Part shown: positions 1 to 12,822 of the stretch, piece by piece
Layout of the letters: every line of letters starts with the position of its first letter
Numbering within the stretch: the stretch's first letter is position 1
Assembly: GCA_030683155.1 (NCBI GenBank)
Contig: JAUXMV010000022.1
Coordinates: forward strand, 1-40,850
Direction: 5' to 3'
Length of the DNA: 40,850 nucleotides
DNA from: Bacteroidales bacterium
Lineage (GTDB): Bacteria; Bacteroidota; Bacteroidia; Bacteroidales; F082
Notes under the pieces: model-generated
Databases searched by the model: none
Told to the model about the DNA's origin: nothing
Seen by the model: only the letters and a program-made list of their open reading frames with translations
Translations under genes and position numbers: made by a program

Positions 1-1
1 T

Positions 2-118
2 GAAACAAATGCTATTGCCGAAGCAGTTAATAGTAAAATACAGAAACTAATATCTTCAAATAATGGAAACAGAGATAAGGATTTCTTCTTCTTTAGACTT
101 ACTCAATTCTATGCCTAG
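2..118 (+). CDS. 3' end of an unidentified gene (truncated by window edge)
   Basis: The frame beginning at base 2 stays open for 38 codons and ends in TAG at 116-118. The visible C-terminus is polar, with a run of four Phe before the end (FFFFRLTQFYA). It sits just upstream of Rhs cassette A, so by analogy with the later units it could be the end of an immunity gene or tip of a preceding cassette. That is inference from position only. No family is recognised. Confidence 0.35.
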   Translation, partial: ETNAIAEAVNSKIQKLISSNNGNRDKDFFFFRLTQFYA

Positions 119-131
119 CACATCAAAATAA

Positions 132-1196
132 GATTTAGCCAATAATTCGGAAGGAGAGGTTGAAAATTGTTATATATTTGCTCCAAGCGGATTGGTATGT
201 ATCATTCAGTTTAAAGAAACATTGGAAACGATTAGTTATGTTCATACAGATCATTTAGGATCAATTATTGGCTTGACCGATGAGCTTGGACAAGTTATTC
301 CCGGCAGTGTGAATAGTTTTGATGCCTGGGGCCGCCGCCGCGACCCAAACACCTGGCAAATTATTTCAAATTTCTCCCAACCTCTGCTTTTCGACCGTGG
401 CTTTACAGGCCACGAACACCTGACTGAGTTTAACCTCATTAACATGAATGGAAGGGTATATGACCCCACAATCATGCGCTTTCTTAGCCCCGATCCAATC
501 ATTCAGGCACCGGATTTCTCGCAGAGTTTTAACAGGTATAGTTATGTGATGAACAATCCCATAAATCTTATTGACTTGAGTGGTTATACATGGGAAGATT
601 ATGAGGATGATCCACCTCATGTTACGGATGCTGAATTCAGAGAACAGAACAAGGACGGTTTTTGGTTAGCTGAAGTTGAGGTGATTGATTCAAAGATGAA
701 TCCAATGGAAGAAATATGGAAAATGCATGATGGATTTGAGCTTGACAGGGAGTATGATGGGTATGATGCTGAAAATAATCGGGGCTCAACTGGTGGGAGT
801 GAGTTACAACTAAATTCTACAGCAAGTTATATCTATGATGGTCAGTTTAGATCATATCCATTAATACATAGTATGGAAGCTGGACAACATGTTAGGGTTG
901 AAGTGAAAAATATGAATTTTTTGGGGGTTCAGTTGGATTTGCAAGATAAATCACGTTATACATACAAAAAAAATTGGCTTGGCATTGAGAGTAAGGTTTA
1001 TACTGGAGATAGTCATTCAATGGTTTTACTTCCTATACAATCAAAAAGTTTTGATTTTTATATGTTTAATTATGTTCCTATGAATTGGCAATTTGAGCTT
1101 AGTACAAAGATAAGTGGTGCTGCAAATGTTCAGATAAGATTTTATAGTGATTGGGTTCCTGGTATGCCATATGACCCTATTCATCCAAACAGATAA
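132..1196 (+). CDS. Rhs cassette A: partial Rhs core with unidentified C-terminal tip
   Basis: The frame is open from 132, after a TAA at 129-131. It carries the Rhs repeat-associated core: YIFAPSG, then YVHTDHLGS, FDAWGRRRDP, FDRGFTGHEHL, NMNGRVYDP and the closing FNRYSYVMNNP-DLSG. The first usable start codon (TTG, 192) lies inside the conserved core, so the cassette lacks a proper 5' end. Unlike cassettes B, C, E and F it has no TAnnTTTG box and ATG in front. After the DLSG boundary (near base 585) about 200 residues form a variable tip, first acidic then rich in beta-prone sequence, that I do not recognise. The partner gene starts 4 nt downstream. It may be a silent reservoir tip, or the 3' end of a disrupted rhs gene lying left of the window. 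Confidence 0.75.
   Translation, partial: DLANNSEGEVENCYIFAPSGLVCIIQFKETLETISYVHTDHLGSIIGLTDELGQVIPGSVNSFDAWGRRRDPNTWQIISNFSQPLLFDRGFTGHEHLTEFNLINMNGRVYDPTIMRFLSPDPIIQAPDFSQSFNRYSYVMNNPINLIDLSGYTWEDYEDDPPHVTDAEFREQNKDGFWLAEVEVIDSKMNPMEEIWKMHDGFELDREYDGYDAENNRGSTGGSELQLNSTASYIYDGQFRSYPLIHSMEAGQHVRVEVKNMNFLGVQLDLQDKSRYTYKKNWLGIESKVYTGDSHSMVLLPIQSKSFDFYMFNYVPMNWQFELSTKISGAANVQIRFYSDWVPGMPYDPIHPNR
504..545 (+). repeat. Conserved Rhs core junction repeat, copy A
   Basis: This 42-nt segment encodes QAPDFSQSFNRYSY, the last strongly conserved stretch before the tips diverge. It recurs at 2539-2580, 4576-4617 and 8346-8387. By eye the copies differ only in the codons for the FSQ part, and the final 22 nt are identical in all four. 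Such identity immediately before variable tips is what recombination-driven tip exchange requires. Confidence 0.75.
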
Positions 1197-1200
1197 TAAC

Positions 1201-1737
1201 ATGAGATTTATAAAAGAAATACTGATAGTAGCTTCAATTGTTTTTGCTTTAGCTTCATGTAGTGAAATAGAAGTGCATAGAGATTATTATGCTAATGGGG
1301 TATTGAAGGAAGAATACTCAATGAAAAAGGGACAGTTTGATGGTAAATATAAAGCCTTATATTCTAATGGAAAACCACAAGCCATAGGTGAGTTTTCGGA
1401 TGGTAAAATGGATGGAATTTGGCAACATTTTTACCAAAGCGGTAAAAGGCAATCGATAGAAGAACATTTAGACGGAAAACTTGTGAACTTTAATTACTGG
1501 GACGAAGAAGGAAGACAATTAGTAATTGATGGCACAGGAGTTGCTAAAAAATATTATCCTTCTGGACAAATAGAAAGTATAATGTCATACAATGACAATG
1601 TTTTTCATGGGAAGTGCGAAACTTGGTTTCCTAATGGTTTCAAAGCTTCTGAATCCTTTTACGTAAATGGTAAACCTGTAGATACTTGGCAATACTGGAA
1701 TGAATATGGAGTATTAATAAAAACTGAGAAATATTGA
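1201..1737 (+). CDS. YwqK/MORN-type lipoprotein, candidate immunity for cassette A
   Basis: The protein has 178 residues. I start it at ATG 1201, because the longer frame from 1147 overlaps the tip gene and would bury the signal peptide. It begins with a lipoprotein signal ending LASC, with the lipobox Cys near residue 20. The body consists of repeats of the pattern Y-x2-G-x(3-6)-G (YYANGVLKEEY, LYSNGKPQAIGEF, FYQSGKRQ, YYPSGQIES, WFPNGFKASESFY). These are the MORN-variant repeats of the YwqK family, often annotated as a toxin-antitoxin antitoxin. It starts 4 nt after the cassette A stop, so the two are probably co-transcribed. The immunity role is inferred from this position and from the family annotation. 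Confidence 0.7.
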   Translation: MRFIKEILIVASIVFALASCSEIEVHRDYYANGVLKEEYSMKKGQFDGKYKALYSNGKPQAIGEFSDGKMDGIWQHFYQSGKRQSIEEHLDGKLVNFNYWDEEGRQLVIDGTGVAKKYYPSGQIESIMSYNDNVFHGKCETWFPNGFKASESFYVNGKPVDTWQYWNEYGVLIKTEKY

Positions 1738-1941
1738 TTAGCTCATAATATAACTGATCAAAGGCTTTGTGCTATAACGCAACTATGTCTTCTTTAAGAT
1801 ATTTTTAAACTTCTATTTGTAGAGCGTTTTTAAAGCATCAATACCCTGATAATCAATCAACGCAACAATCAATAATACATATACTTTTCTTAATGATAAA
1901 TACATTTTTTTCCACCAGACAAAAACTTTTACATTTGTAGC
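1738..1941. other. Intergenic spacer between cassettes A and B
   Basis: This is about 200 nt of AT-rich sequence. Only its last 40 nt show recognisable content, the cassette promoter. I see no ORF, hairpin terminator or RNA gene in the rest. Confidence 0.5.
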
Positions 1942-1944
1942 ATG
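1905..1944 (+). promoter_or_regulatory. Cassette B promoter abutting the start codon
   Basis: The Bacteroidota -7 box TACATTTG lies at 1930-1937, with exactly 4 nt before the ATG at 1942. The sequence between the T-rich -33 position (1905-1909) and the box closely matches the corresponding stretch before cassettes E and F. Here the expected TTTTG is TTTTT, so the -33 element is degenerate. A start site at the usual distance would give a leaderless or nearly leaderless mRNA. Confidence 0.55.
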
Positions 1945-3591
1945 CGTAATGATTTCGCCTTTGATATTGCCCTCACCTCCGCCACTACCTCAGCCGGCAT
2001 TTTCCCTCCGGAGCAGCAAAGCATTGCCTACAATGCCTTTGATAAGGTGACTTCCATCACCGAAGGGGTTAAAACCCTGCAAATCACCTACGGACACCAC
2101 CGCCAGCGCATCAGTCAGCAATACACTGAGGCAGGTGTAACAACACACAAAGTGTATGCAGGAGCATGCGAATACATCACCCAAAACACCCAAACCACCA
2201 CCCTCACCTACCTGAGTGGGCCGGAAGGTTTGTTTGCCTTGCATGTAAAAAACCCCAATGGCAGCGACAGCATACGCTATATCCACACCGATCACCTTGG
2301 CTCGTGGAACACCATCACTGGCGAAAATGGTAACCCTTTGCAAGAGTTGAGTTTCGATGCCTGGGGCAACCGCCGCGATCCCAACACCTGGCGCGCCTTT
2401 GCCACCACCCCTGCCGAGCCTTTTTTTGACAGGGGCTTCACAGGCCACGAACACCTTTATGGCTTTAAGCTCATTAATATGAACGGCCGTATGTACGACC
2501 CCGTGGTTTCGCGCATGCTCTCGCCAGACAACTTTGTGCAGGCACCGGATTTTAGCCAGAGTTTTAACAGGTATAGTTATTGCTGGAATAATCCGTTGGT
2601 TTATACGGATCCGAGTGGGGAGATACCTTTTTTAGCAGTGGTTGGAATTTATGCAGGAGTGAACTTGGTAGCTGATTTAATCCGCAATGACTTTAAAATG
2701 AATATTGGAGAAATTGGAGTGTCTGTTGGGCTTGGAGCTGTTCAGGGTGCTTTAGCAGCAACTGGTGTGGGTGCAGCAGCGACAGGGTGGACTGTACTAG
2801 GAAGTGCCGCTGCTAGTCAAATTAATATACCAATCTATCAATCAGAGAGTTTTAATTTGAGTGTTTCTCCAAGCCTTTTTGCAGGAACAAATGGACTAAG
2901 GGTTGGAGCAAGTTTGTATGGTTCTGCACGACTCGGAAATACATCAGTTGGTTTTGGGTATAACTTAGGACGAAACTTTGGAGCAACTGATTTAAGTGGT
3001 CAGATGGAAGAGTCTAAATGGTCATCAATTACGAGTTGGAATGTTGGATGGAGTGATGGTAAACAGGGACTATCCTATGGAGCATCATACTATGGTGGGA
3101 ATTATGCCCAAAGTGTAGGGAATTTAGGCTTCCAAATAGGCAGGTTTAGCGCAAGTATTGAGAATGATTTTTGGACAGGTTCAGGAGATAAACATCGTAC
3201 TGCTGCAATAACTGCATCTTATCAGGTTAATGATGATTTAGCTTTAACAGCAGGATTTAGCATTTGGACAGGTGCACCAAATGAACAAAGTAGATACACT
3301 GTTAATGGAGTGGATAGACCTTGTTATTATTCAGATCTTGAAGGTCCGTCAGCCTTGCGAAACGGAAATTGGTTTGTAGGTGCGAATTATCGAGGTAGGA
3401 GCTATTTGGCTGGAGGAAATGGTGAAGGTGTTCGTTCAAGAATTCAAAATGGTTGGCATGATGCAATGGGATCAAAAGCATTAGGCTGGATTTTTGGAGG
3501 ACCTTCTCCACATTTTGAAAGAATGAATTACGAGAGTAGGTTTTATAGCAGTTACGGAACATACAATCCTTTTACAATTTACAGGCAATGA
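1942..3591 (+). CDS. Rhs cassette B: Rhs core fragment with polymorphic toxin type 23-like tip
   Basis: This 549-residue protein has no signal peptide. Residues 1-110 are the end of the Rhs repeats. Residues 110-225 are the core (YIHTDHLGSWN, FDAWGNRRDPNTWR, FDRGFTGHEHL, NMNGRMYDP, FNRYSYCWNNPLVYTDPSGE). A short hydrophobic Gly/Ala-rich linker follows. The last 270 residues form a beta-rich domain with the layout I associate with polymorphic toxin type 23: FGYNLGRNFG, SYGASYYGGNYAQSVG, FSASIENDFWTGSGDKHRTAAI, a repeated-strand segment, then YGTYNPF near the end. The family's activity is not known to me. The gene overlaps the next one by 4 nt (ATGA), implying translational coupling to its immunity gene. 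The core is visibly richer in G and C than the tip, as expected for a modular tip. Confidence 0.75.
   Translation: MRNDFAFDIALTSATTSAGIFPPEQQSIAYNAFDKVTSITEGVKTLQITYGHHRQRISQQYTEAGVTTHKVYAGACEYITQNTQTTTLTYLSGPEGLFALHVKNPNGSDSIRYIHTDHLGSWNTITGENGNPLQELSFDAWGNRRDPNTWRAFATTPAEPFFDRGFTGHEHLYGFKLINMNGRMYDPVVSRMLSPDNFVQAPDFSQSFNRYSYCWNNPLVYTDPSGEIPFLAVVGIYAGVNLVADLIRNDFKMNIGEIGVSVGLGAVQGALAATGVGAAATGWTVLGSAAASQINIPIYQSESFNLSVSPSLFAGTNGLRVGASLYGSARLGNTSVGFGYNLGRNFGATDLSGQMEESKWSSITSWNVGWSDGKQGLSYGASYYGGNYAQSVGNLGFQIGRFSASIENDFWTGSGDKHRTAAITASYQVNDDLALTAGFSIWTGAPNEQSRYTVNGVDRPCYYSDLEGPSALRNGNWFVGANYRGRSYLAGGNGEGVRSRIQNGWHDAMGSKALGWIFGGPSPHFERMNYESRFYSSYGTYNPFTIYRQ
2539..2580 (+). repeat. Conserved Rhs core junction repeat, copy B
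   Basis: This copy of the 42-nt core segment is the same as that at 4576-4617. It precedes a near-identical NNPLVYTDPSGE segment, after which cassettes B and C diverge. Confidence 0.75.
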
Positions 3592-4118
3592 TAAGGTTAG
3601 CAGCATTAGTAATCGGGCTGTTTTTATTCCAGTCCTGTGCGTTATTAACTTCTTGTAAATCATTTAAACTTGAAAGAGGAGAAAAAACCTCTTTCCAGGT
3701 TAAGCGAATATATACTGATAATTTTACTCATACAGTAGTTTTTTTTGATGATGGTACACTCCTCTCTATAAAAGGTGTTTCTCCTGAAAATATTACGGAT
3801 TATCTGGAGAATAATCGATACAAGATTTACAAAAAATTTGATGATTACCGTTTTAAGTGGGGCGTTTACAAGATGTTAAGTGATACGATTTCTATTGAAT
3901 TGCAAGAAAAAGTACATCAATGGGGTTTAATAGAAGTTTGTCGTTGGCAAGGAGTTCTCAAAGGGAATGAATTACAGATATTGCCGCTTGATGAAGAATT
4001 AAACGGAAGATTAGATTTTTACACCTTTTCTAAGAATGGCGTAACACTTAAAACCGCTAATGAATTTTTGCTTGAGGAAGTTACAATTGACCCAAAGTTA
4101 TCCTGGGTAAACGATTAA
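3588..4118 (+). CDS. Lipoprotein, candidate immunity for cassette B
   Basis: The protein has 176 residues and its ATG overlaps the stop of cassette B (ATGA). The N-terminus is a lipoprotein signal with lipobox FQSC (Cys near residue 17) and a second Cys a few residues on. The mature part is mixed alpha/beta and polar. The motif VVFFDDGTLLSI resembles the MIFFRDGMFI and FIFFKDGIFLF segments of the candidate immunity proteins of C and D, and WGVYK / WGLIE recall their WGLY. This suggests a divergent shared family matched to type 23-like tips. The function is inferred from position; I recognise no named domain. Confidence 0.65.
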   Translation: MIRLAALVIGLFLFQSCALLTSCKSFKLERGEKTSFQVKRIYTDNFTHTVVFFDDGTLLSIKGVSPENITDYLENNRYKIYKKFDDYRFKWGVYKMLSDTISIELQEKVHQWGLIEVCRWQGVLKGNELQILPLDEELNGRLDFYTFSKNGVTLKTANEFLLEEVTIDPKLSWVND

Positions 4119-4164
4119 TGTATCTCTTGCAATTTAGTTTGATTAATAAAGGCCCCAGCTGGTT

Positions 4165-4179
4165 CGGATTTACAATCCG
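4165..4179. repeat. Small palindrome in the B-C spacer
   Basis: CGGATT-tac-AATCCG forms a perfect 6-bp hairpin with a 3-nt loop between the cassette B immunity gene and cassette C. It is followed by ATCCGG and lacks a T-run, so it is a poor terminator. It could be a remnant of a small dispersed repeat. Confidence 0.3.
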
Positions 4180-4248
4180 TATCCGGAATAATCAATTGCA
4201 CATCCTAATTTGTACTTGATTAAACAATAATTATAGATAAGAATTGAT

Positions 4249-4263
4249 TATTTTTGAAACATG
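4249..4263 (+). promoter_or_regulatory. Cassette C -7 box abutting the start codon
   Basis: TATTTTTG at 4249-4256 matches TAnnTTTG and stands 4 nt before the ATG at 4261, the same spacing as in cassettes B, E and F. The rest of the promoter differs from theirs and I see no good -33 element at the expected distance. Confidence 0.4.
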
Positions 4264-5550
4264 AGCCAGACATCAACTATTCATTACTCCAACAGTAGCA
4301 GCGAAAATATCCGCTATATCCATGCCGACCACCTCGGTTCATGGAACATTATTACTGATGAAAACGGCAACCTCTTGCAAGAACTGAGCTTCGATGTCTG
4401 GGGCAACCGCCGCGATCCCAACACCTGGCGCGCCTTTGCCACCACGCCTGTTGAGCCTTTTTTTGACCGCGGTTTCACCGGCCATGAGCATCTGTATGGT
4501 TTCCAACTCATCAATATGAATGGCCGCATGTACGACCCCGTAGTATCGCGCATGCTCTCACCCGACAACTTTGTGCAGGCACCGGATTTTAGCCAGAGTT
4601 TTAACAGGTATAGTTATGCATGGAATAATCCGTTGGTTTATACCGATCCGAGTGGGGAGATGGTTATGTTTTATGCACTTGGGTTGTTTATCACTGGGTC
4701 TATCATTGAAAATGCTATTAACTACAAAGACTATGGTCATAAAAGTGTAGGCGATGTCATCAGGGGAGGGTACAACCAAGACATGAATGCATATAATGAA
4801 ATTCAAAGTGTTACATCTTTCACTGTTTACCAAAATGAGAACTTTTCATTTTCTATGGGATTGTCCATGACAGGCCTTGGCCTCAATGCGAACATGGGTT
4901 ACAGGCTTCGCAATTTTACCTTAAGCTTAGGGGGCGGCATCAATTCAGTAGTTAACCCGGAGGTGTCGGCACAAACAGGTGGCAGCAGTTTCGAGCTTGT
5001 GCCACAATTATCAGGCGGAATAGGATATGATGATGGTAACTTTTCGTTCACATATTACCAAACCTATTATGGAGGAATGCACAAGCAAAGGGTTGGAGGA
5101 GTTAGAGTTTCCAGTGGCGAGGTTTCTTTCAGGCTTGAAAATGATTTTCTAGCATGGCAAGGCGAAGACCGTTGGAGATCAAATGCAGTAGAAATAAGCC
5201 ATAAAAACTTTGTCATTGGGACAAATTTGTATAATAACGAGCAAAGGGTTGGTGATCGCTTGGAAAACTCTCCTAATCTCTTGGGTTTATATAATAAGTA
5301 CGGTAATGCGGCTTGGGCCAATGGACAAACTTATTACAGCCCCTTATGGTTTGGCATAAGGCAAGGAAATTCTGTGCATCGATTTGGTTTTAGCCATCCA
5401 ATGGTGCAGGATAGAACCCAAAACTGGGTACACAGGAACGGGTTCTTTTATATGCCTTTTGGCCGCACACACTTTTTCAACAAATATGCGCATTTCCAGC
5501 GCGGATTTACAGGATACTCAGGATATTATAACCCCTACTCATTATGGTAA
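4261..5550 (+). CDS. Rhs cassette C: short Rhs core with polymorphic toxin type 23-like tip
   Basis: This 429-residue protein has no signal peptide. After about 17 residues unrelated to Rhs it enters the core directly at IRYIHADHLGSWN, so only the final core is present (FDVWGNRRDP, FDRGFTGHEHL, NMNGRMYDP, FNRYSYAWNNPLVYTDPSGE). A variable linker leads to a Gly-rich, beta-rich tip of about 245 residues: NANMGYRLRNF, FSFTYYQTYYGG, VSFRLENDFLAWQGEDRWRSNAVEI, VHRNGFFYMPFGRTHFF, ending YYNPYSLW. This layout fits polymorphic toxin type 23. The stretch 4867-5237 is nearly identical to 6361-6731 in unit D. The stop overlaps the following lipoprotein gene by 7 nt (ATGGTAA). The biochemical activity is unknown. 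Confidence 0.75.
   Translation: MSQTSTIHYSNSSSENIRYIHADHLGSWNIITDENGNLLQELSFDVWGNRRDPNTWRAFATTPVEPFFDRGFTGHEHLYGFQLINMNGRMYDPVVSRMLSPDNFVQAPDFSQSFNRYSYAWNNPLVYTDPSGEMVMFYALGLFITGSIIENAINYKDYGHKSVGDVIRGGYNQDMNAYNEIQSVTSFTVYQNENFSFSMGLSMTGLGLNANMGYRLRNFTLSLGGGINSVVNPEVSAQTGGSSFELVPQLSGGIGYDDGNFSFTYYQTYYGGMHKQRVGGVRVSSGEVSFRLENDFLAWQGEDRWRSNAVEISHKNFVIGTNLYNNEQRVGDRLENSPNLLGLYNKYGNAAWANGQTYYSPLWFGIRQGNSVHRFGFSHPMVQDRTQNWVHRNGFFYMPFGRTHFFNKYAHFQRGFTGYSGYYNPYSLW
4576..4617 (+). repeat. Conserved Rhs core junction repeat, copy C
   Basis: This is the same 42-nt segment as at 2539-2580, again placed immediately before the boundary where tips diverge. Confidence 0.75.
4867..5237 (+). repeat. Near-identical toxin segment, copy 1
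   Basis: This 371-nt stretch aligns without gaps to 6361-6731 (offset 1494). By eye there are about seven mismatches, several of them synonymous. Identity stops abruptly at both ends although homology continues at the protein level. This fits a recent tandem duplication followed by partial divergence, or later gene conversion. Confidence 0.85.
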
Positions 5551-6278
5551 AAGTTGTAATCTTGCTTTTTTTATCTTTAATGGCAATATCTTGTTCCAAT
5601 ATTATATACAAGAAAAATGCGCCTAAATCCTTAATAAAAAGGTTCCCTTGTTATCAGCCAATAGATAGTCTAAATGAAAAGAGTTTTTATGGTTTATATT
5701 CACAAAGAATAGAAGTATTAGAAATTTCACAATCCCCTGAAATAATTGATATAAAGTACTTTAATAGGAATATGATTTTTTTTAGGGATGGCATGTTTAT
5801 TACCGATTTTTTTGATTACAATAGAAATAGTAGAGTTAATAACACCGAAAACACAGAGGCGTATGTCCAGGAATTGGGCATTGATAGAAATGCATTGGAG
5901 TTATTTCTCAATTCTTCAAATTGGGGCTTATATATGTTTATTGATGATACAATATATGTACACTACATTAATCATCCGCAGTTGCTTGTCCCTTGGGGTT
6001 CTTCATCAGAATGTTTTATCATAAATAATTTCATGCAAATTGAGAAAATAAACGAATGCATGCTGTTATCAAAAACTGATCCTACTTTTGGTCTAAAAGC
6101 ACCTAATGTAAATCCCTACCTTTATAGACCTGCAGTTAGAATTAATGTAAAAGCACTTCCATCATCAAATGCCTGGCTCAAGCGCGAAAAATGGTTTTGG
6201 TGCGATGAGTCTGAATGGAGAGCATATATGGAAGAGAATGGATACAAAATAAGGAGGCGTGATCATGCAAAACATTGA
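5544..6278 (+). CDS. Lipoprotein, candidate immunity for cassette C
   Basis: The protein has 244 residues. Its ATG overlaps the toxin stop by 7 nt (ATGGTAA), the same overlap used in unit D, which points to translational coupling. It has a lipoprotein signal with lipobox AISC (Cys near residue 17). The central part has MIFFRDGMFITDFF and WGLYMFIDDTIYVHYINHP. The end has a charged, Trp-rich motif (LPSSNAWLKREKWFWCDE, then RRRDHAKH) that is almost the same in the unit D protein. The two are clear paralogues at their ends and less alike in the middle. An exported lipoprotein would protect the periplasmic side. The immunity function is inferred from pairing. Confidence 0.7.
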   Translation: MVKVVILLFLSLMAISCSNIIYKKNAPKSLIKRFPCYQPIDSLNEKSFYGLYSQRIEVLEISQSPEIIDIKYFNRNMIFFRDGMFITDFFDYNRNSRVNNTENTEAYVQELGIDRNALELFLNSSNWGLYMFIDDTIYVHYINHPQLLVPWGSSSECFIINNFMQIEKINECMLLSKTDPTFGLKAPNVNPYLYRPAVRINVKALPSSNAWLKREKWFWCDESEWRAYMEENGYKIRRRDHAKH

Positions 6279-7047
6279 GAGGAAACCTGTGCGTTTCATA
6301 AGCAGCGCTTCGTTAGGTGTTTGCCAGAATGAAAGCTTTTCTTTATCGTTAGGATTAAAAATGACAGGCCTTGGCCTCAATGCGAACATGGGTTACAGGC
6401 TTCGCAATTTTACCTTAAGCGTAGGAGGCTGCATCAATTCAGTAGTAAACCCGGAGGTGTCGGCACAAACAGGTGGCAGCAGTTTCGAGCTTGTGCCGCA
6501 ATTATCAGGCGGAATAGGATATGATGATGGTAACTTTTCGTTCACATATTACCAAACCTATTATGGAGGAATGTACAAGCAAAGGGTTGGAGGAGTTAGA
6601 GTTTCCAGTGGCGAGTTTTCTTTCAGGCTTGAAAATGATTTTCTAGCATGGCAAGGCGAAGACCGTTGGAGATCAAATGCAGTAGAAATAAGCCATAAAA
6701 ACTTTGTCATTGGGACAAATTTGTATAATAATGATCCGGAACCTGGTGGAATGGGCACACACAATACTCCAAACCTTTTAGGAAAACTTAATAAACATGA
6801 TAATGAAGCTTGGGTTGATGGCCAAACCTATTTTAGTCCTTTATGGCTTGGTAGAAAGCAAGGTAATTCTATATATCGTTTAGGCTACAGCCACCCAATG
6901 GTGCAAGATAGGTCGCAAAACTGGGTGCACAGAAATGGGTTCTTTTATTTGCCTTTTGGCCGCACCCACTATTTCAATAAATATGCACATTTCCAGTATG
7001 GTCTCAGAGGATACTCTGGATTTAATAATCCTTATTCATTATGGTAA
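6265..7047 (+). CDS. Unit D: type 23-like toxin domain without Rhs core
   Basis: The protein has about 260 residues. I prefer ATG 6265, preceded by AAGGAGG at 6251-6257; a GTG at 6259 is also possible. The AAGGAGG may be incidental, since it lies in Arg/Lys codons of the upstream immunity gene. There is no Rhs core and no signal peptide. The whole protein corresponds to the tip of cassette C: QNESFSLSLG, NANMGYRLRNF, SFTYYQTYYGG, FSFRLENDFLAWQGEDRWRSNAVEI, FYLPFGRTHYFNKY, ending NNPYSLW. It overlaps the cassette C immunity gene by 14 nt and its own partner by 7 nt, so 4261-7778 is a continuous four-gene chain. Without a core, delivery through an Rhs shell is not evident. It may be a decoy, a donor of tips, or an inactive copy. 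Confidence 0.7.
   Translation: MQNIERKPVRFISSASLGVCQNESFSLSLGLKMTGLGLNANMGYRLRNFTLSVGGCINSVVNPEVSAQTGGSSFELVPQLSGGIGYDDGNFSFTYYQTYYGGMYKQRVGGVRVSSGEFSFRLENDFLAWQGEDRWRSNAVEISHKNFVIGTNLYNNDPEPGGMGTHNTPNLLGKLNKHDNEAWVDGQTYFSPLWLGRKQGNSIYRLGYSHPMVQDRSQNWVHRNGFFYLPFGRTHYFNKYAHFQYGLRGYSGFNNPYSLW
6361..6731 (+). repeat. Near-identical toxin segment, copy 2
   Basis: This is the second copy of the 371-nt segment at 4867-5237. After 6731 the sequence diverges, and the part of the toxin beyond it and the paired lipoprotein both differ from unit C. Confidence 0.85.
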
Positions 7048-7778
7048 AGTACCTTTTCTTCGTAGTATTGTGCCTTTCTACGATATCCTGCTCAAAGATG
7101 ATCTACGACAATAATCCACCACTCAGATATTTGAGCGAGTTTACACTTTGCTATGGCGAAAACTCAATAAACGAACACTTTTTACTCAGGCACAATGGCT
7201 TTTATCATCAAGATGGCATTCTTAGATTCTATAGTTTTAAAAACTCAGATTGGGAAGTTAGTGAGTTAAGCTATAGCGCAAACTTTATCTTCTTCAAGGA
7301 CGGTATTTTTTTGTTTGGTGTAACAGACAGAGATGAATATAGGGCTTTAAGTGGATTAAATGATTTAGATTTGTATTTTCAGGAACTTACTCAATCAACT
7401 GAGAAGACAAAGAGATTCCTCAATTCAGGCTATTGGGGCTTATATTCTGTTAGCAATGATACGATTAGAACACAATATATTAATCATCCATCATGGAATA
7501 TGCCTTGGAATGCAACCGAGCTAATTTTTGTTTTTGACGATCACGGCAAATTAAACAGTATTCAAACAAGAGCACTAGGTATTACAAATACAAACATTAT
7601 CCCTTCCCGCACCGAGCTTATCAGACATCCTGCAGAGTATATTCCACTCGAAACTCTTCCATCTTCTGACGCCTGGCTCAAACGCGAAAAATGGTTCTGG
7701 TGCGATGAAGATGAATGGAGAACCTATATGGAGCAAAATGGTTATAAAATAAGAAGACGTGATCGTGCAATACGATGA
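7041..7778 (+). CDS. Lipoprotein, candidate immunity for unit D
   Basis: The protein has 245 residues and a lipoprotein signal with lipobox TISC (Cys near residue 17). It is paralogous to the 5544-6278 product: both have a ...FFxDGxF... segment, WGLYSVSNDTIRTQYINHP, and the closing LKREKWFWCDE ... RRRDRAIR. It starts inside the toxin stop (ATGGTAA), repeating the coupling seen in unit C. Its 3' end overlaps, in another frame, the start of a further degraded toxin copy (7765-7866). Divergence from the unit C protein is strongest in the N-terminal and central parts, as expected if it is matched to the diverged half of its toxin. Confidence 0.7.
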   Translation: MVKYLFFVVLCLSTISCSKMIYDNNPPLRYLSEFTLCYGENSINEHFLLRHNGFYHQDGILRFYSFKNSDWEVSELSYSANFIFFKDGIFLFGVTDRDEYRALSGLNDLDLYFQELTQSTEKTKRFLNSGYWGLYSVSNDTIRTQYINHPSWNMPWNATELIFVFDDHGKLNSIQTRALGITNTNIIPSRTELIRHPAEYIPLETLPSSDAWLKREKWFWCDEDEWRTYMEQNGYKIRRRDRAIR

Positions 7779-7866
7779 ATTAAAACAGATAGGTTTCAAG
7801 AGCAGCACTTTGAATGATGTTTCACAAAGTAAAAGCTTTTCATTTTCCAGAGAGCAAACATGCTGA
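7765..7866 (+). pseudogene. Relic of a third type 23-like toxin copy
   Basis: In the frame where unit D starts after immunity C, a GTG-led frame of 33 codons starts inside the 3' end of the unit D lipoprotein gene and stops at TGA 7864-7866. Its translation (QYDELKQIGFKSS, then SQSKSFSFS) aligns with the starts of the C and D toxin regions (NEIQSVTSF...NENFSFSMG and QNIERKPVRFISS...NESFSLSLG). The rest of the toxin is missing and cassette E's promoter follows. The lipoprotein-toxin unit was therefore once present in at least three tandem copies. Confidence 0.65.
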
Positions 7867-7921
7867 TGCTTTTTATCCAGAACACAACTTTGCATTATAC
7901 TGACCTTTAACATTAAACATA

Positions 7922-7961
7922 TTTTGCTCCGACTGACAAATTCTTTTACATTTGTATTATG
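7922..7961 (+). promoter_or_regulatory. Cassette E promoter abutting the start codon
   Basis: TTTTG at 7922-7926, 20 nt, then TACATTTG at 7947-7954, then 4 nt and the ATG at 7959. Both elements and their spacing fit the Bacteroidota promoter consensus. The sequence is closely similar to the cassette F promoter, and transcription from it would give a leaderless mRNA. Confidence 0.6.
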
Positions 7962-9389
7962 AGTAATCATGCAGCATACCAGCTCACCCAAAATGGCCAA
8001 ACCACCACCCTCACCTACCTGAGCGGGCCGGAGGGTTTGTTTGCCGTGGTGGTGAAAGAACCCAACGGAACATCCTATATCCGCTATATCCACACCGATC
8101 ACCTTGGCTCTTGGAACACCATCACTGGCGAAAACGGCAACCTCTTGCAAGAGTTGAGTTTCGATGCCTGGGGCAACCGCCGCAATCCCAACACCTGGCG
8201 CGCCTTTGCCACCACCCCTGCCGAGCCTTTGTTTGACCGCGGTTTCACCGGCCATGAGCATCTGTATGGTTTCCAACTCATAAACATGAATGGCAGAATG
8301 TATGATCCGGTAGTGAGCCGCATGCTCTCGCCCGACAACTTTGTGCAGGCACCGGATTTCTCGCAGAGTTTTAACAGGTATAGTTATTGCTGGAACAACC
8401 CCCTGATTTATACTGATCCTTCGGGAGAATTTATATTTACCCTTGCTACGCTTATTGCAGCTCCATTTACTGGCGGTGCTTCTTTAGCTCTTTTGCCAAC
8501 TGCAATAGGTGCTGATATTGGAATGTGGCAAGGTGGGACATTAGCAAATGGTGGAGAAATGAATCCTTTCAAATGGGATTACAGCTCTGGTAAAACATGG
8601 GGTTATATGCTTGGAGGCGCAGCAGTTGGTGCAGCATCTGGTTATGTTGGTGGAGCTATTGCCGCAGAAGGTGGATTTATGGCTAATACCATGGGGATTA
8701 TGGCAGCATCACATGTCAACTCGGTTGGTATGGGAATTTTATCAGGAGGACAAACAGATTATACCCTAAGTTTTGGTGTTGCTTCTTATAACTTCACACA
8801 AGGAGAATGGGGATATTTAGGTAAGCCTGGGAATACTGGTCTTCAAAATTTTGGTTATTTTCTTGGAGCTATGGCTAATCTAAATGATATTAACAATTTA
8901 ATAAATCAGACTAATGCAACGCTGTATACTCAAGAGAGATATGCAGATGGCTCTAAAGATGTAATATCACATACTGGTATTGTAGATGATGCAACAGGTA
9001 AAAATTTAATGTCTTTTGGACCAAACGACTCCAAAATTGGAGGTGGTGGTTTTAAAGACCAAATTGGAGGAGCGAAACCATTAGGTGGGTATAAAAAGTT
9101 TGGACTGGCTGTACGCAAAGGAACTCCAGATTATCCTGTACCTACAAGTTTGTCAAAATCAACAAGTTTGGTGGCAAATAAGCACTTGTTTAGTGGATTG
9201 CGAGGAGTTAGTAAATTTATACCTTACCAAGGTGTAAGCACCAATTGTGTTAATATGTCATCTATTGGTCTTTGGTTAAATGGGATACCAAATATCGGAA
9301 TTCATCCTTACTTATTACATTACAGTATAGCTGCTTATAATAGTGGTTTTAACCCATACATGCTTAATGCATTATCAACGAGATACTAA
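7959..9389 (+). CDS. Rhs cassette E: Rhs core with candidate permuted papain/NlpC-like tip
   Basis: This 476-residue protein has no signal peptide. It enters the Rhs sequence later than cassette B, at QLTQNGQTTTLTYLSGPEG, and then has the full core to NNPLIYTDPSGE (about residue 155). A Gly/Ala-rich hydrophobic region with two possible membrane-spanning stretches follows. Next comes a pre-toxin segment (FGVASYNFTQGEWGYLGKPGN) that I associate with Bacteroidota Rhs proteins. The last 150 residues contain SHTGIVDD (His338) and, about 90 residues later, TNCVNMS (Cys430). His before an Asn-Cys is the order seen in permuted NlpC/P60-like and PPPDE-like enzymes, so a cysteine peptidase, amidase or acyl-hydrolase tip is possible. 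That assignment is inference. The partner gene starts 4 nt later. Confidence 0.7.
   Translation: MSNHAAYQLTQNGQTTTLTYLSGPEGLFAVVVKEPNGTSYIRYIHTDHLGSWNTITGENGNLLQELSFDAWGNRRNPNTWRAFATTPAEPLFDRGFTGHEHLYGFQLINMNGRMYDPVVSRMLSPDNFVQAPDFSQSFNRYSYCWNNPLIYTDPSGEFIFTLATLIAAPFTGGASLALLPTAIGADIGMWQGGTLANGGEMNPFKWDYSSGKTWGYMLGGAAVGAASGYVGGAIAAEGGFMANTMGIMAASHVNSVGMGILSGGQTDYTLSFGVASYNFTQGEWGYLGKPGNTGLQNFGYFLGAMANLNDINNLINQTNATLYTQERYADGSKDVISHTGIVDDATGKNLMSFGPNDSKIGGGGFKDQIGGAKPLGGYKKFGLAVRKGTPDYPVPTSLSKSTSLVANKHLFSGLRGVSKFIPYQGVSTNCVNMSSIGLWLNGIPNIGIHPYLLHYSIAAYNSGFNPYMLNALSTRY
8346..8387 (+). repeat. Conserved Rhs core junction repeat, copy E
   Basis: This is the same 42-nt core segment as in A, B and C. 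The FSQ codons match the cassette A version rather than that of B and C, so the array holds two sub-versions of this junction. Confidence 0.75.
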
Positions 9390-9393
9390 AAAA

Positions 9394-9804
9394 ATGAAAA
9401 AAGCTTTTTTATTTACACTTGTGTTTATATTTGGAACAGCTTCTTTAATAAAAGCAAATATGCAAGACTCAGTTTTAATAAAACATGATTGTAAAGTCAT
9501 AGAACATGGTTTTTTTACTTTCTACACCTTTGATGATGATAAAACAATAATTAAGAATATTTTTAGCTATAGCCTTAACTTGAAAAAGCAAACATCTATT
9601 GTGACTTTTATTGAAAGTGAGACTATTAAAATAAATTCAATGGCTAAAAATGATATTGATGGGTTTTATAAGAGTGAGGAATGGAATAAAAAACGTATTG
9701 GAACTTCCGTTGAAAAATACTTTCTACTTTTTCATCCAGAGTTCCTTAAATGGAATAATGCACAAAAATTAGACTTTTTTATCCAGACAGGTAAGAAAGA
9801 GTGA
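9394..9804 (+). CDS. Secreted small protein, candidate immunity for cassette E
   Basis: The protein has 136 residues. I start it at ATG 9394, 4 nt after the cassette E stop; the frame extends upstream to 9343, but that would bury the signal peptide. The N-terminus MKKAFLFTLVFIFGTASLIKA is a Sec signal peptide without a lipobox, unlike the partners of B, C and D. The mature part is Lys-rich and polar, with no domain I recognise. Position directly after a toxin-like tip and before a strong terminator suggests an immunity protein exported to the periplasm. Confidence 0.6.
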   Translation: MKKAFLFTLVFIFGTASLIKANMQDSVLIKHDCKVIEHGFFTFYTFDDDKTIIKNIFSYSLNLKKQTSIVTFIESETIKINSMAKNDIDGFYKSEEWNKKRIGTSVEKYFLLFHPEFLKWNNAQKLDFFIQTGKKE

Positions 9805-9810
9805 GAATTA

Positions 9811-9836
9811 AAAAGCCCGGACTTGCCGGGCTTTTT
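9811..9836 (+). terminator. Rho-independent terminator after cassette E
   Basis: AAAAGCCCGG at 9811-9820 pairs perfectly with CCGGGCTTTT at 9826-9835 around a 5-nt loop, so the T-run closes the stem. It follows the candidate immunity gene by a few bases and ends the transcript of cassette E. Confidence 0.85.
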
Positions 9837-9980
9837 GCTTATAGTGCAGCAACATTTTTCTGAAAGAAATCCTTAAACTTTTTATTGGTAAGCATCTTTT
9901 CAAATAATCAAACAAAGTCGGTTGCCCTTTTTAGCACAACACATTATAATGCGTTTTTCTGTCCATTAATATCAAACAGT

Positions 9981-10020
9981 TTTTGTTCCAACAGACAAAA
10001 CCTTTTACATTTGTAGCATG
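9981..10020 (+). promoter_or_regulatory. Cassette F promoter abutting the start codon
   Basis: TTTTG at 9981-9985, 20 nt, TACATTTG at 10006-10013, 4 nt, then ATG at 10018. This is the same architecture as cassette E and close to cassette B in sequence. Confidence 0.6.
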
Positions 10021-10500
10021 AGTAATGATTCCGCATTTGATATTGCCCTCACCTCCGCCACCACCTCAGCCGGCATTTTCCCTCCGGAGCAGCAAAGCAT
10101 TGCCTGCAATGCCTTTGATAAGGTGACTTCCATCACCGAAGGGGATAAATCCTTGCAAATCACCTACGGACACCACCGCCAACGCATCAGTCAGCAATAC
10201 ACTGAGGCAGGTGTAACAACACACAAAGTGTATGCAGGAGCATGCGAATACATCACAAAAAACGGCCAAACCACCACCCACACCTACCTCAGCGGGCCGG
10301 AGGGGATCTTTGCCCTGCATGTGAAAAACCCAAATGGCACAGAAAACATCCGCTACATCCACACCGATTACCTCGGCTCCTGGAATACCATTACCGATGA
10401 AAACGACAACCATTTGCAAGAGTTGAACTTTGATGCCTGTTCAGTGAAACTTGGTTTTTGTGAGCGCAGCGAAATAAAAGCCTTTTTATTTCTGATATAA
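10018..10500 (+). pseudogene. Rhs cassette F: tipless, truncated Rhs core
   Basis: The first 135 or so residues match cassette B closely (ALTSATTSAGIFPPEQQSIA, ITYGHHRQRISQQY, YIHTDYLGSWNTI). At FDAW the homology ends abruptly: after base 10439 the sequence leaves the core and 20 unrelated residues lead to TAA at 10498-10500. DHLGS is DYLGS here. The remaining core, the tip and any partner gene are absent, so this looks like a deletion remnant that keeps an intact promoter and start. Confidence 0.7.
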
Positions 10501-10510
10501 TATTCAATCA

Positions 10511-10543
10511 AAAACCCCGGCAATATATGATTACCGGGGTTTT
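10511..10543. terminator. Bidirectional terminator between cassette F and the DUF4398-like gene
   Basis: AAAACCCCGG at 10511-10520 pairs with CCGGGGTTTT at 10534-10543, with T-runs on both strands. It lies between converging genes and marks the right border of the Rhs array. Confidence 0.8.
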
Positions 10544-10614
10544 TGAATTTTCTGACAGAAGAAAGCTTCTTTCAGGTTTTGCAAACAGGATTTTAGAACC
10601 CTGTGTGTTTGCTA

Positions 10615-11217
10615 CTACCTGCGTTTTTTTGTTTTTGCAATAGCTTCTTCAAGTTCAGCTTTTAATGCAGCGGCTTTTTCGCCTGCAGCTTTCACTTTGT
10701 CAACAGCGGTAAGATAATCACCATTGTTGATGAGTGTGGAAACTTCAGCAAGGAAAGACTCGACTAAAACCACATCCCCCTGAATGGCTTCAAGAGCTTC
10801 CTTGCCTTCTTTTCCCTTAGGAGCTGAAGCAAGCAATTCTTTTACTTCCGTAACAAGTGCGGTAACTTCAGCGAGTGCCTGTTGTGCCTCGTTTTTAACT
10901 TCTTCTTTACGGGCTGCAGCATTTTCTTTAACTGTTTCCGACATTGTCGCAACAGAGGTTAAAGTGCCGGTTGCTTTTTTGTAGTTTCTGAAAAGTGCAA
11001 ATTTTGAATTTTGATTTTCAATTTCCAGCATAGCAACGTTCAATGAATCTTGTAATGCTTTGAATTCTGAAGGAACATAACGTTCAGCTTCAACGGCTTT
11101 AGCGGCTTCGATAGCAGCTTTGGCACTGGTCATTTCTACTTCTGGTGCTTTTGCGCAACTTGCGAAAGTCAAAGCAATGATTGCAACTGCAAATGTGGTT
11201 TTAATGAAATTTTTCAT
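10615..11217 (-). CDS. DUF4398-like helical lipoprotein
   Basis: The protein has 200 residues. A lipoprotein signal ends FASC (Cys near residue 21). The mature part is almost wholly alpha-helical and Ala/Lys/Glu-rich, with a first segment (AKAAIEAAKAVEAERYVPSEF, then ALQDSLNVAM) typical of DUF4398-type envelope lipoproteins. It ends in a basic tail (KTKKRR). It stands alone between the bidirectional terminator and the two-component operon. A near-consensus sigma-54 promoter lies 50-65 nt upstream, and the neighbouring response regulator is a sigma-54 activator, so it is a plausible direct target. The molecular role is unknown. Confidence 0.7.
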   Translation of the reverse strand: MKNFIKTTFAVAIIALTFASCAKAPEVEMTSAKAAIEAAKAVEAERYVPSEFKALQDSLNVAMLEIENQNSKFALFRNYKKATGTLTSVATMSETVKENAAARKEEVKNEAQQALAEVTALVTEVKELLASAPKGKEGKEALEAIQGDVVLVESFLAEVSTLINNGDYLTAVDKVKAAGEKAAALKAELEEAIAKTKKRR

Positions 11218-11265
11218 GTTTAAAATTTTATTGATGAATAGATTTAGTTTATCGGTTCATCATTA

Positions 11266-11281
11266 CTCAATACATGTGCCA
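11266..11281 (-). promoter_or_regulatory. Predicted sigma-54 promoter of the DUF4398-like lipoprotein gene
   Basis: On the - strand the sequence reads TGGCAC, 5 nt, TTGAG. The -24 half is a full match to the consensus TGGCAC-N5-TTGCA. In the -12 half TTG is kept but the following C is A. It lies about 50 nt upstream of the ATG. The direct repeats AATGAAATG at 11301-11309 and 11359-11367 lie where activator sites would be expected. No other TGGCAC-N5-TTG arrangement was found in an intergenic region here. Confidence 0.5.
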
Positions 11282-11397
11282 TAGATCATAAAATACACAA
11301 AATGAAATGAATACATTGTTCGAAGATATTTAGGCTGAGAATTTATACTCAAATAATCAATGAAATGTGTATGAAATTCAGGCAGATTGTAAGATTT

Positions 11398-12822
11398 TCA
11401 GTCAGGGGAATCTGTGCTCTCATGTGTTGAAAGACCGAATTTTTCCATGCGTTCATACAACATTGCCCTCGAAATACCTAATAGCCTTGCTGTTTTGGCA
11501 TGATTACCCTTGTTGTGCTGCATGCATTTAATAATCAATTCTTTCTCGGTTTTTTCGATAACATGTTTATACAAACGGCCTTCGAAATCTGATAGGTTTT
11601 CAGGGATAAATGAAACATCCTTTATTTCAGAAACAGATCTGTTTGTTGTCTCAGAAACTATTTCCTTCTGAATCATATCAGGAGTGATGACATTGCTTTT
11701 GCTTAGCAAGATGGAGCGTTTCAGTAAATTTTCAAGCTCTCTTACATTGCCGGGCCATGGCTGGCTTTTAAGCAATTCAATGGTTTCGGGCGGAATCGTC
11801 ACTGAATGACGCTTTAACTCATGACTGTATCGCCTTAAAAAGTAATCAGCCAAAAGAGGGATGTCTTCTTTTCGCATTCTCAATGGAGGAATTGTGATGG
11901 TGATGACCTTAAGCCTGTAATAAAGGTCTTCGCGAAACTGACCTTTAGCGATAGCCGTTTCAAGATTTTTGTTGGAAGCAGAGATGATACGTACATCTGT
12001 ATGCACGGTTTTGTTGCTGCCAAGTCTTTCAAACGTGCCTTCCTGCAATACACGCAATAGTTTAGCCTGTAGCGTAAGACTCATATCTGCTACCTCATCT
12101 AAAAAAAGAGTTCCTCCATTGGCTTGCTCAAACTTACCCTGTTTGGGTTGAGAAGCATCTGTAAATGCGCCTTTCTCAAAGCCAAAAAGTTCGCTTTCCA
12201 GAAGATTGTCTGGAATAGCAGCGCAATTTATTGCAATAAAAGGATTGTTTATCCTATCACTGTAGCGATGTATTGCCTTCGCCACGAGCTCTTTCCCCGT
12301 TCCGCTCTCACCGCTGATGAGCACACTCACATCGGAAGCGGCTACACGGCCGATCATTTTATAAACTTCCTTGATGGCAGTACTTGATCCTACAATTTCA
12401 TCAGGACTTGCACTTAAATGACTTTCGGCAACAGCTTTTTCTGATTTGGAAAGTTTTTTGGTTTCGAGGGCTTCTTTAACGAGGATTCTCAACCGTTCAA
12501 TATCGAAAGGTTTTTCAATGTATTCGAATGCGCCATATTTCATTGCGGCTATCACGCGTTCAGTGGTACCAAAAGCAGTCATAATGATTACCGGCAACGA
12601 AGGCTGCATAATTTTTATTCTCTGAATAGCTTCGAGTCCGTTCATGCCGGGCATTTCAATGTCCATTAGCACAAGATCAGGATTTTCTTTTTTAAGCACT
12701 GTGAGTGCATCAAGGCCGTTGGTGGCTTCAATAATTTCTGTATGCGGATCGCGGAAAAGCTTTCGGAAGGAGTACCTTACGTTCTCTTCATCATCAACTA
12801 TAAGTATCAGTTTTTTTTCCAT
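11398..12822 (-). CDS. Sigma-54-dependent response regulator (NtrC/AtoC type)
   Basis: The protein has 474 residues. The receiver domain (1-120) has the acidic pair D10-D11, phospho-acceptor Asp54, Thr82 and Lys104. The AAA+ domain (about 143-375) has Walker A GESGTGKE at 171-178, the sigma-54 contact loop in the form GAFTDA, Walker B GTLFLDE, and a PWPGNVREL motif. The C-terminal Fis-type helix-turn-helix reads NHAKTARLLGISRAMLYERM. It activates sigma-54 holoenzyme by ATP hydrolysis after phosphorylation by the kinase encoded 2 nt upstream. The nearby sigma-54-like promoter at 11266-11281 is a candidate target. Confidence 0.93.
   Translation of the reverse strand: MEKKLILIVDDEENVRYSFRKLFRDPHTEIIEATNGLDALTVLKKENPDLVLMDIEMPGMNGLEAIQRIKIMQPSLPVIIMTAFGTTERVIAAMKYGAFEYIEKPFDIERLRILVKEALETKKLSKSEKAVAESHLSASPDEIVGSSTAIKEVYKMIGRVAASDVSVLISGESGTGKELVAKAIHRYSDRINNPFIAINCAAIPDNLLESELFGFEKGAFTDASQPKQGKFEQANGGTLFLDEVADMSLTLQAKLLRVLQEGTFERLGSNKTVHTDVRIISASNKNLETAIAKGQFREDLYYRLKVITITIPPLRMRKEDIPLLADYFLRRYSHELKRHSVTIPPETIELLKSQPWPGNVRELENLLKRSILLSKSNVITPDMIQKEIVSETTNRSVSEIKDVSFIPENLSDFEGRLYKHVIEKTEKELIIKCMQHNKGNHAKTARLLGISRAMLYERMEKFGLSTHESTDSPD

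Follow-up and report, generated by a model that had tools for sequence, protein, structure and literature searches.

The first 10,500 nt of a 40,850-nt window from a Bacteroidales bacterium, which is one entire contig (C74; JAUXMV010000022.1) of a 111-contig draft genome (G000; GCA_030683155.1; 4.74 Mb, 98.6% complete), carry a tandem array of six units, A to F, assembled from Rhs core fragments, variable tips and downstream partner genes. On balance, we favor the view that the array is made up of orphan Rhs tips paired with immunity partners and that several of these pairs have turned into autonomous transcription units through a leader that supplies both a promoter and an ATG, with the leaders being re-used as cartridges by recombination in the core. 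Base 1 of the window is the contig end, and nothing is visible further left.

First, as an earlier first-pass annotation of this DNA had claimed, four units have an ATG right behind a promoter box: in B, C, E and F, a -7 box of the form TAHHTTTG ends exactly 4 nt ahead of the ATG. The box reads TACATTTG in B (1930..1941, including the 4-nt spacer), E (7947..7958) and F (10006..10017) and TATTTTTG in C (4249..4260), all on the + strand, and in E and F a TTG lies 20 nt upstream of it (7924-7926 and 9983-9985, respectively). In letter shuffles of orphan upstream DNA, the chance of any TAnnTTTG at 2-10 nt was 0.0045. Since the leaders of B, E and F are homologous, the four boxed units represent only two leader types and thus two independent cases. 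Alignment to a long rhs gene of the sibling genome G006 begins at base 27 of the open reading frame (ORF) in B and F, 38 in C and 39 in E, which bears out the claim that the units enter the Rhs sequence at different points and means that their first 8-12 codons are not alignable core. In Flavobacterium johnsoniae, many transcripts start 4 or 5 nt past this box (PMC6847099; here and below, the literature is cited from partial texts). With the box 4-5 nt ahead of the ATG, as leaderless mRNAs would require, leaderless transcripts are therefore predicted for all four units. For comparison, leaders exceed 10 nt in 87% of the predicted F. johnsoniae transcripts with a probable promoter (PMC6847099), and about 3.7% of the 5' untranslated regions of Bacteroides thetaiotaomicron are shorter than 10 nt (PMC7366714). 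A sigma-70 scan was uninformative (32 found vs 33.5 expected); a terminator scan returned 6 candidates vs 8.6 expected, and a hairpin near 9815-9836, judged by eye, was not among them.

Second, leaders recur with unrelated tips, a feature that the first-pass annotation did not mention. Clustering of upstream DNA revealed several leaders (MSND, MSIDK, MATGF, MSTATA and others) that are each common to multiple orphans. The MSND leader precedes B, E, F and two units of G006 (contigs C172 and C191), the MSIDK leader three units at loci L076 and L082, the MATGF leader seven units on four contigs of three genomes, and the MSTATA leader three units. Within these four families, the similarity of full-length tip pairs is 0.02-0.07 of self, apart from one MATGF pair at 0.23, and pairs that include a tip of 21-57 amino acids (aa) score 0.09-0.22. 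Between units with a shared leader, identity is 0.59-0.93 in the leader (70 nt) and 0.28-1.00 in the core, where low values go with differences in entry point or core length. The cartridge pattern is clearest between L316:5187 and L087:12221, at 0.85 in the leader, 0.99 in the core and 0.04 in the tip; elsewhere, two pairs with cut tips in other clusters do have common tips (0.57 and 0.84). Moreover, across all seven MATGF members the promoter columns, TTG and TA..TTTG separated by 20 nt, are invariant (9/9 vs 4/37 other upstream columns, p=6e-7), which is, at the level of the alignment, the footprint expected of a working promoter.

Third, the tip and partner of E recur together outside the family. 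BLASTN matched window positions 8246-9836, with 82% identity across 1601 nt, to L222, which belongs to a genome in a different family of this order. When the alignment was read in steps of 60 columns, core identity stood at 0.42-0.68 and rose to 0.85 from 8409. Values in the tip and partner were mostly 0.75-0.98, apart from 0.58-0.60 at 8769-8880, before identity fell to 0.33 from 9780, near the partner stop (9804). As judged from this profile, the tip-partner pair moves as one block. The ratio of nonsynonymous to synonymous substitution rates (dN/dS) between E and L222 came to 0.15 in the tip and 0.21 in the partner, and between the tips of C and D it is 0.22. In addition, the 42-nt junction repeat reported in the first-pass annotation was recovered as an exact run common to A (504-545) and E, a length reached in 1/20,000 shuffles; it sits inside an alignment of 65% identity, and its position at the core end fits recombination there.

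Fourth, the start of unit C is a piece of a dispersed repeat, an origin that had likewise gone unmentioned. The C leader (4153..4269, + strand), which provides the promoter and the ATG, aligns with the left portion of a dispersed element that has long terminal inverted repeats and measures ~176 bp in one intact copy; the window copy retains the left end only. The element resembles a miniature inverted-repeat transposable element (MITE), as copies at L353 and L336 pair end to end and it is dispersed, with matches in 9/60 family genomes, and too short for a transposase. There are 12 matches in genome G146, some of them short, the matches of G142, G143 and G148 are weak as well as short, and the unit C copy is the sole full match in its own genome. 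Among 16 copies selected for alignment, 10 have the box and nine have box and ATG at 4 nt. An orphan in G158 (L310) starts within another copy, with a fusion point differing from that of C, and now-broken C-like fusions are found in G016 and G146. A second repeat, with nine matches in the genome of the window, precedes an orphan at the start of contig C91, where box and ATG again stand at 4 nt; it also lies ahead of a cut unit on C91, and its other translated copies have no Rhs sequence behind them. These two repeat families raise the tentative possibility, which we hold at clearly less than even, that dispersed repeats in which an ATG stands 4 nt behind a -7 box of the sigma-ABfr type serve as mobile promoter-start donors that would make start-less Rhs tip-immunity fragments self-standing leaderless genes, the cartridge then collecting new pairs by recombination in the core stub.

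Two further arrangements of the first element were seen in G146. Three well-preserved copies lie inside 1.4 kb on contig C27 (L355 9704-11043), and another copy (L079 16303-16490) stands directly ahead of a lipoprotein-like start in an Rhs array, where it perhaps drives a partner gene without a tip.

Beyond the window, Rhs-core frames were gathered from loci, and 221 orphans with a usable first ATG were kept after exclusion of duplicates, 5'-open frames and frames whose first ATG lay <=60 nt from the locus end or past the core. Whether a start fell inside or outside the core was decided by the median BLAST start across the five best subjects. The near-relative set, which spans more than one family and combines relatives of G000, the loci nearest by Rhs core and a family sample, holds 90 orphans with a non-core leader that form 64 clusters by upstream DNA similarity; the closest relatives by Rhs core are metagenome genomes of Bacteroidetes, Bacteroidales or Lentimicrobiaceae. 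Controls were 505 non-overlapping ORFs, with the result unchanged from controls that included overlapping frames. The box was found at 4-5 nt in 7/64 near-relative leader clusters vs 8/505 controls (p=5e-4), at 2-10 nt in 9/64 vs 16/505 (p=8e-4), at 11-30 nt in 12/64 vs 51/505 (p=0.04) and at 2-30 nt in 20/64 vs 67/505 (p=5e-4). Removal of the two window clusters left 5/62 at 4-5 nt (p=0.009), 7/62 at 2-10 nt (p=0.008) and 18/62 at 2-30 nt (p=0.002). For orphans whose first ATG lies inside the core, the box was present in 0/23 clusters at 2-10 nt and 3/23 at 11-30 nt, and at the starts of full-length frames in all sets it was present in 1/56 at 2-10 nt and 1/56 at 11-30 nt (2/56 overall). A fresh family sample had the box at 11-50 nt in 16/43 orphans, with 15 of these 17 boxes at 16-26 nt; close and 11-50 nt boxes together were found in 18/43 orphans vs 22/121 controls (p=0.002). 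In other families of the order, a close box was present in 1/98 orphans and a box at 11-50 nt in 7/98, vs 3/51 and 5/51 controls. Order-wide generality of the pattern was considered and rejected on these 97-98 orphans, which show no enrichment. Since other families do not rise above controls, the box feature belongs to the clade of this genome and its near kin, not to orphan Rhs genes generally.

We propose that a displaced tip-partner fragment would gain a short non-Rhs leader that brings a promoter of the Bacteroidota sigma-ABfr type and an ATG at or beside the predicted transcript start. This leader would be joined in frame to an Rhs core stub, followed by the tip and a closely spaced gene for an exported partner. 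Leader and core stub would then form a re-usable cartridge, in which recombination in the core swaps tip-partner pairs, and leaders have been acquired more than once, that of C from the dispersed inverted-repeat element. The partner would be expressed through the tip message. It probably needs this message because a box of its own is rare (within 50 nt of the partner start in 1/92 orphans) and because it lies close to the tip stop: a partner ORF was found within -40..+60 nt of the stop in 96/105 near-relative orphans, with 29 overlapping it and 54 at 0-15 nt. As the partners in the window look exported and the short tips, judged from their translations, have no signal peptide, we infer that a tip made in the cytoplasm would be harmless and that the benefit would be continued immunity against relatives delivering the same toxins.

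Several observations weigh against this proposal. No TTG precedes the box of B, and none stands at the right spacing in C; the MSND leader reads AACATTTG in both of its G006 copies, with the first box base lost; and the box is absent from 6/16 aligned copies of the element, including the three well-preserved ones on C27 of G146. Among the near-relative leader clusters, 44/64 are without a box at 2-30 nt; a close box was found in 2/43 orphans of the fresh family sample, so that the 4-nt spacing is not typical there; and in other families of the order the box occurs in 1/58 leader clusters at 2-10 nt and 3/58 at 2-30 nt. Partners of full-length genes are also mostly without a box (64/72; 8/72 with), so that its absence is not orphan-specific. 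Moreover, EC93 makes an orphan immunity protein although the orphan toxin has no start (PMC3150448), and a toxin start is therefore not needed in general. The boxless clusters, the lack of the pattern in other families, the altered G006 boxes and the clear exchange of tips would all suit classical silent orphans, in which tips are held in reserve for recombination onto a full-length rhs gene and the boxes and ATGs are chance or inert leftovers. We regard this explanation as a serious but rather unlikely one, as the box is enriched over controls with the window clusters in or out, the MATGF promoter columns are invariant, and the partner and tip frames are open with dN/dS of 0.15-0.22.

More doubtful is the idea that the units are autonomous toxin-antitoxin modules whose tip acts within the producing cell. 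This has been proposed for main and orphan Rhs toxins of Salmonella, where rhs-CT/rhsI, driven by an internal promoter, function as type II toxin-antitoxin modules (PMC7043789). In the window, the tips lack a signal peptide whereas the partners look exported, so that the two would not meet in the cytoplasm, and a hydrophobic N-terminus was scored, by a crude rule, in 73/96 near-relative orphan partners. Frames that are open from the leader through the tip end in B, C and E would also suit short independent effectors, that is, small Rhs proteins themselves loaded on a secretion system and delivered; we consider this improbable, given the lack of a signal peptide, the loss of most of the Rhs shell and the absence of an identified secretion gene in the array, the rest of the genome not having been searched. 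An assembly artefact, in which misjoined repeated rhs sequence yields false units, could be suspected because the array stands right at the contig start and a number of the genome's Rhs contigs break off inside Rhs sequence, yet is very improbable, as the B/E/F leader and core recur on the two sibling G006 contigs C172 and C191 and the tip-partner block of E is also present in an unrelated assembly.

The units and partners of the array, A to F, all lie on the + strand, in agreement with the tandem one-strand layout of the first-pass annotation. Its order of core, tip and exported-looking partner holds for A, B, C and E, whereas D is a tip-partner pair without core and F lacks both tip and partner. 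TIGR03696 scored above cut-off in A, B, C and E, and Ntox23 (PF15528) in B, C and D. Unit A (132..1196) comprises Rhs core, to ~584, and tip in an open frame; it has no in-frame ATG ahead of the core, the first lying at 444, so that it keeps the described core, tip and partner but not a start of its own. Its partner (1201..1737) has MORN_2 repeats, identified by family search, and a lipobox-like N-terminus, judged by eye. Unit B (1942..3591) consists of an 8-codon leader, a core stub and an Ntox23 tip, and unit C (4261..5550) of a leader, the last part of the core and an Ntox23 tip; in both, the start of the partner (3588..4118 and 5544..6278, respectively) overlaps the stop of the unit. Unit D (6265..7047), a core-less Ntox23 tip that is 81% identical to the C tip across 248 aa, begins within the partner of C, and its stop is overlapped by the start of its own partner (7041..7778), behind which lies a further tip remnant (repeat 6151-6347 / 7651-7847). 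An AAGGAGG at 6251-6265 precedes the start of D, which is unusual for Bacteroidota, where Shine-Dalgarno sites are rarely used (PMC6847099). Unit E (7959..9389) has a leader, a core and a tip without family match, followed by a partner (9394..9804) with a signal-peptide-like N-terminus. All five partner N-termini appear, by eye, signal-peptide-like or lipobox-like. Unit F (10018..10500) contains a leader and a core that is 81% identical to the B core along 164 nt and is then cut. A 49-nt repeat (peptide SVKLGFCERS) occurs at the same position in the Rhs core at window 10440-10500, at L072 1320 and 3927, at C43:56619 and at C38:26943. The cut of F with SVKLGFCERS behind it is also found on G006 C172, where the core resumes afterwards and a 589-aa frame is open. 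Rfam (window 1-12000) and tRNA scans gave no matches.

A full-length rhs gene is present elsewhere in the genome, as the first-pass annotation had expected: contig C25 carries a 2086-aa frame with 52% aa identity to the B core. A long rhs gene with the same core at the nucleotide level, which had also been anticipated, is absent from the assembly, in which DNA matches to the B core above 80% occur only on C74. The nearest long rhs to the B core, on C101 of G006 (86% aa identity across residues 9-219), is a 1826-aa frame that ends just past the core, close to the contig end. On C75 of G016, a 2194-aa rhs is followed by short units.

With respect to the tip proteins, Protein Data Bank (PDB) sequence searches with the tips of C and E gave unconvincing best E-values of 0.038 and 0.036. 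The predicted model of the C tip consists mainly of strands at a mean predicted local distance difference test score (pLDDT) of 49.5, and Foldseek returned 0/416 matches with E<=0.001 for it, the top rows being mostly outer-membrane barrels. D shows a weak match to LpxR (E 0.0096, below cut-off). The Ntox23 tips (window 4660-5547 and 6265-7044) may thus be outer-membrane beta-barrels. The model of the E tip has a mean pLDDT of 59.7, with 0/93 Foldseek matches at E<=0.001. In an eight-row alignment of the E tip (window 8430-9386), a Cys is invariant and two His are present in 7/8 rows, in the order His then Cys, which suggests a permuted papain-like enzyme, a candidate assignment to which the predicted model gave no support. 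Close to the MSND unit on C191 of G006 is a core-less relative of the E tip (L054 2576-3514, - strand; 46% across 326 aa).

How leftover toxin-immunity arrays are maintained, and whether they are expressed at all, was raised as an open question in earlier work (PMC7043789, PMC3150448), and a sequence signature that sets orphans with promoter-start leaders apart from silent-looking ones makes this testable gene by gene. If our reading is true, a repeat that brings along a promoter and a start would offer a displaced fragment a simple way to become a working gene, and mobile toxin modules would have recruited leaderless expression, which is rare in this phylum. Arrays of orphans, the exchange of tips and internal promoters are already known. 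Orphan rhs-CT/rhsI and cdiA-CT/cdiI modules of enterobacteria (PMC3150448, PMC3967940) likewise combine a varying core fragment, a variable tip and an adjoining partner, and show tandem arrays and block exchange; in the window, A, B, C and E have a core fragment followed by a variable tip, and partners lie directly downstream. The enterobacterial modules usually lack translation starts, whereas B, C, E and F have an ATG ahead of the core, and the non-core leaders that bring box and ATG recur with different tips.

Promoter-driven orphan Rhs genes are not new in themselves, because Salmonella orphan rhs genes are known to be expressed from an internal promoter (PMC7043789). In this P2 system, too, the orphan toxin and partner own a promoter. 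P2 is located in conserved sequence of main and orphan genes, whereas the box described here lies outside the core: boxes were found in non-core leaders and at 2/56 full-length starts, the interiors of full-length genes not having been scanned. Unlike in the P2 modules, the spacing in some units predicts no leader, and the partners look exported. The standalone cassettes of polymorphic toxin systems (PMC3482391) are similar in placing toxin-immunity cassettes beside toxin genes, and Ntox23 is listed there as all-beta, present in Bacteroidetes and associated with RHS repeats; promoter-start leaders or repeat-derived starts, both seen here, are not described in the accessible text of that report. 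In searches of open-licence PMC papers, neither promoter-start leaders re-used among orphan Rhs genes nor a repeat element as their source appeared in the titles and opening abstracts that were returned. Finally, the rAID arrays of Bacteroidales (PMC12247911) are also co-oriented and may protect against relatives. They are marked by a tyrosine recombinase, for which PF00589 matches were found at seven places of the genome and none on C74, and they hold orphan immunity genes, whereas in the array described here the toxin tips are kept.

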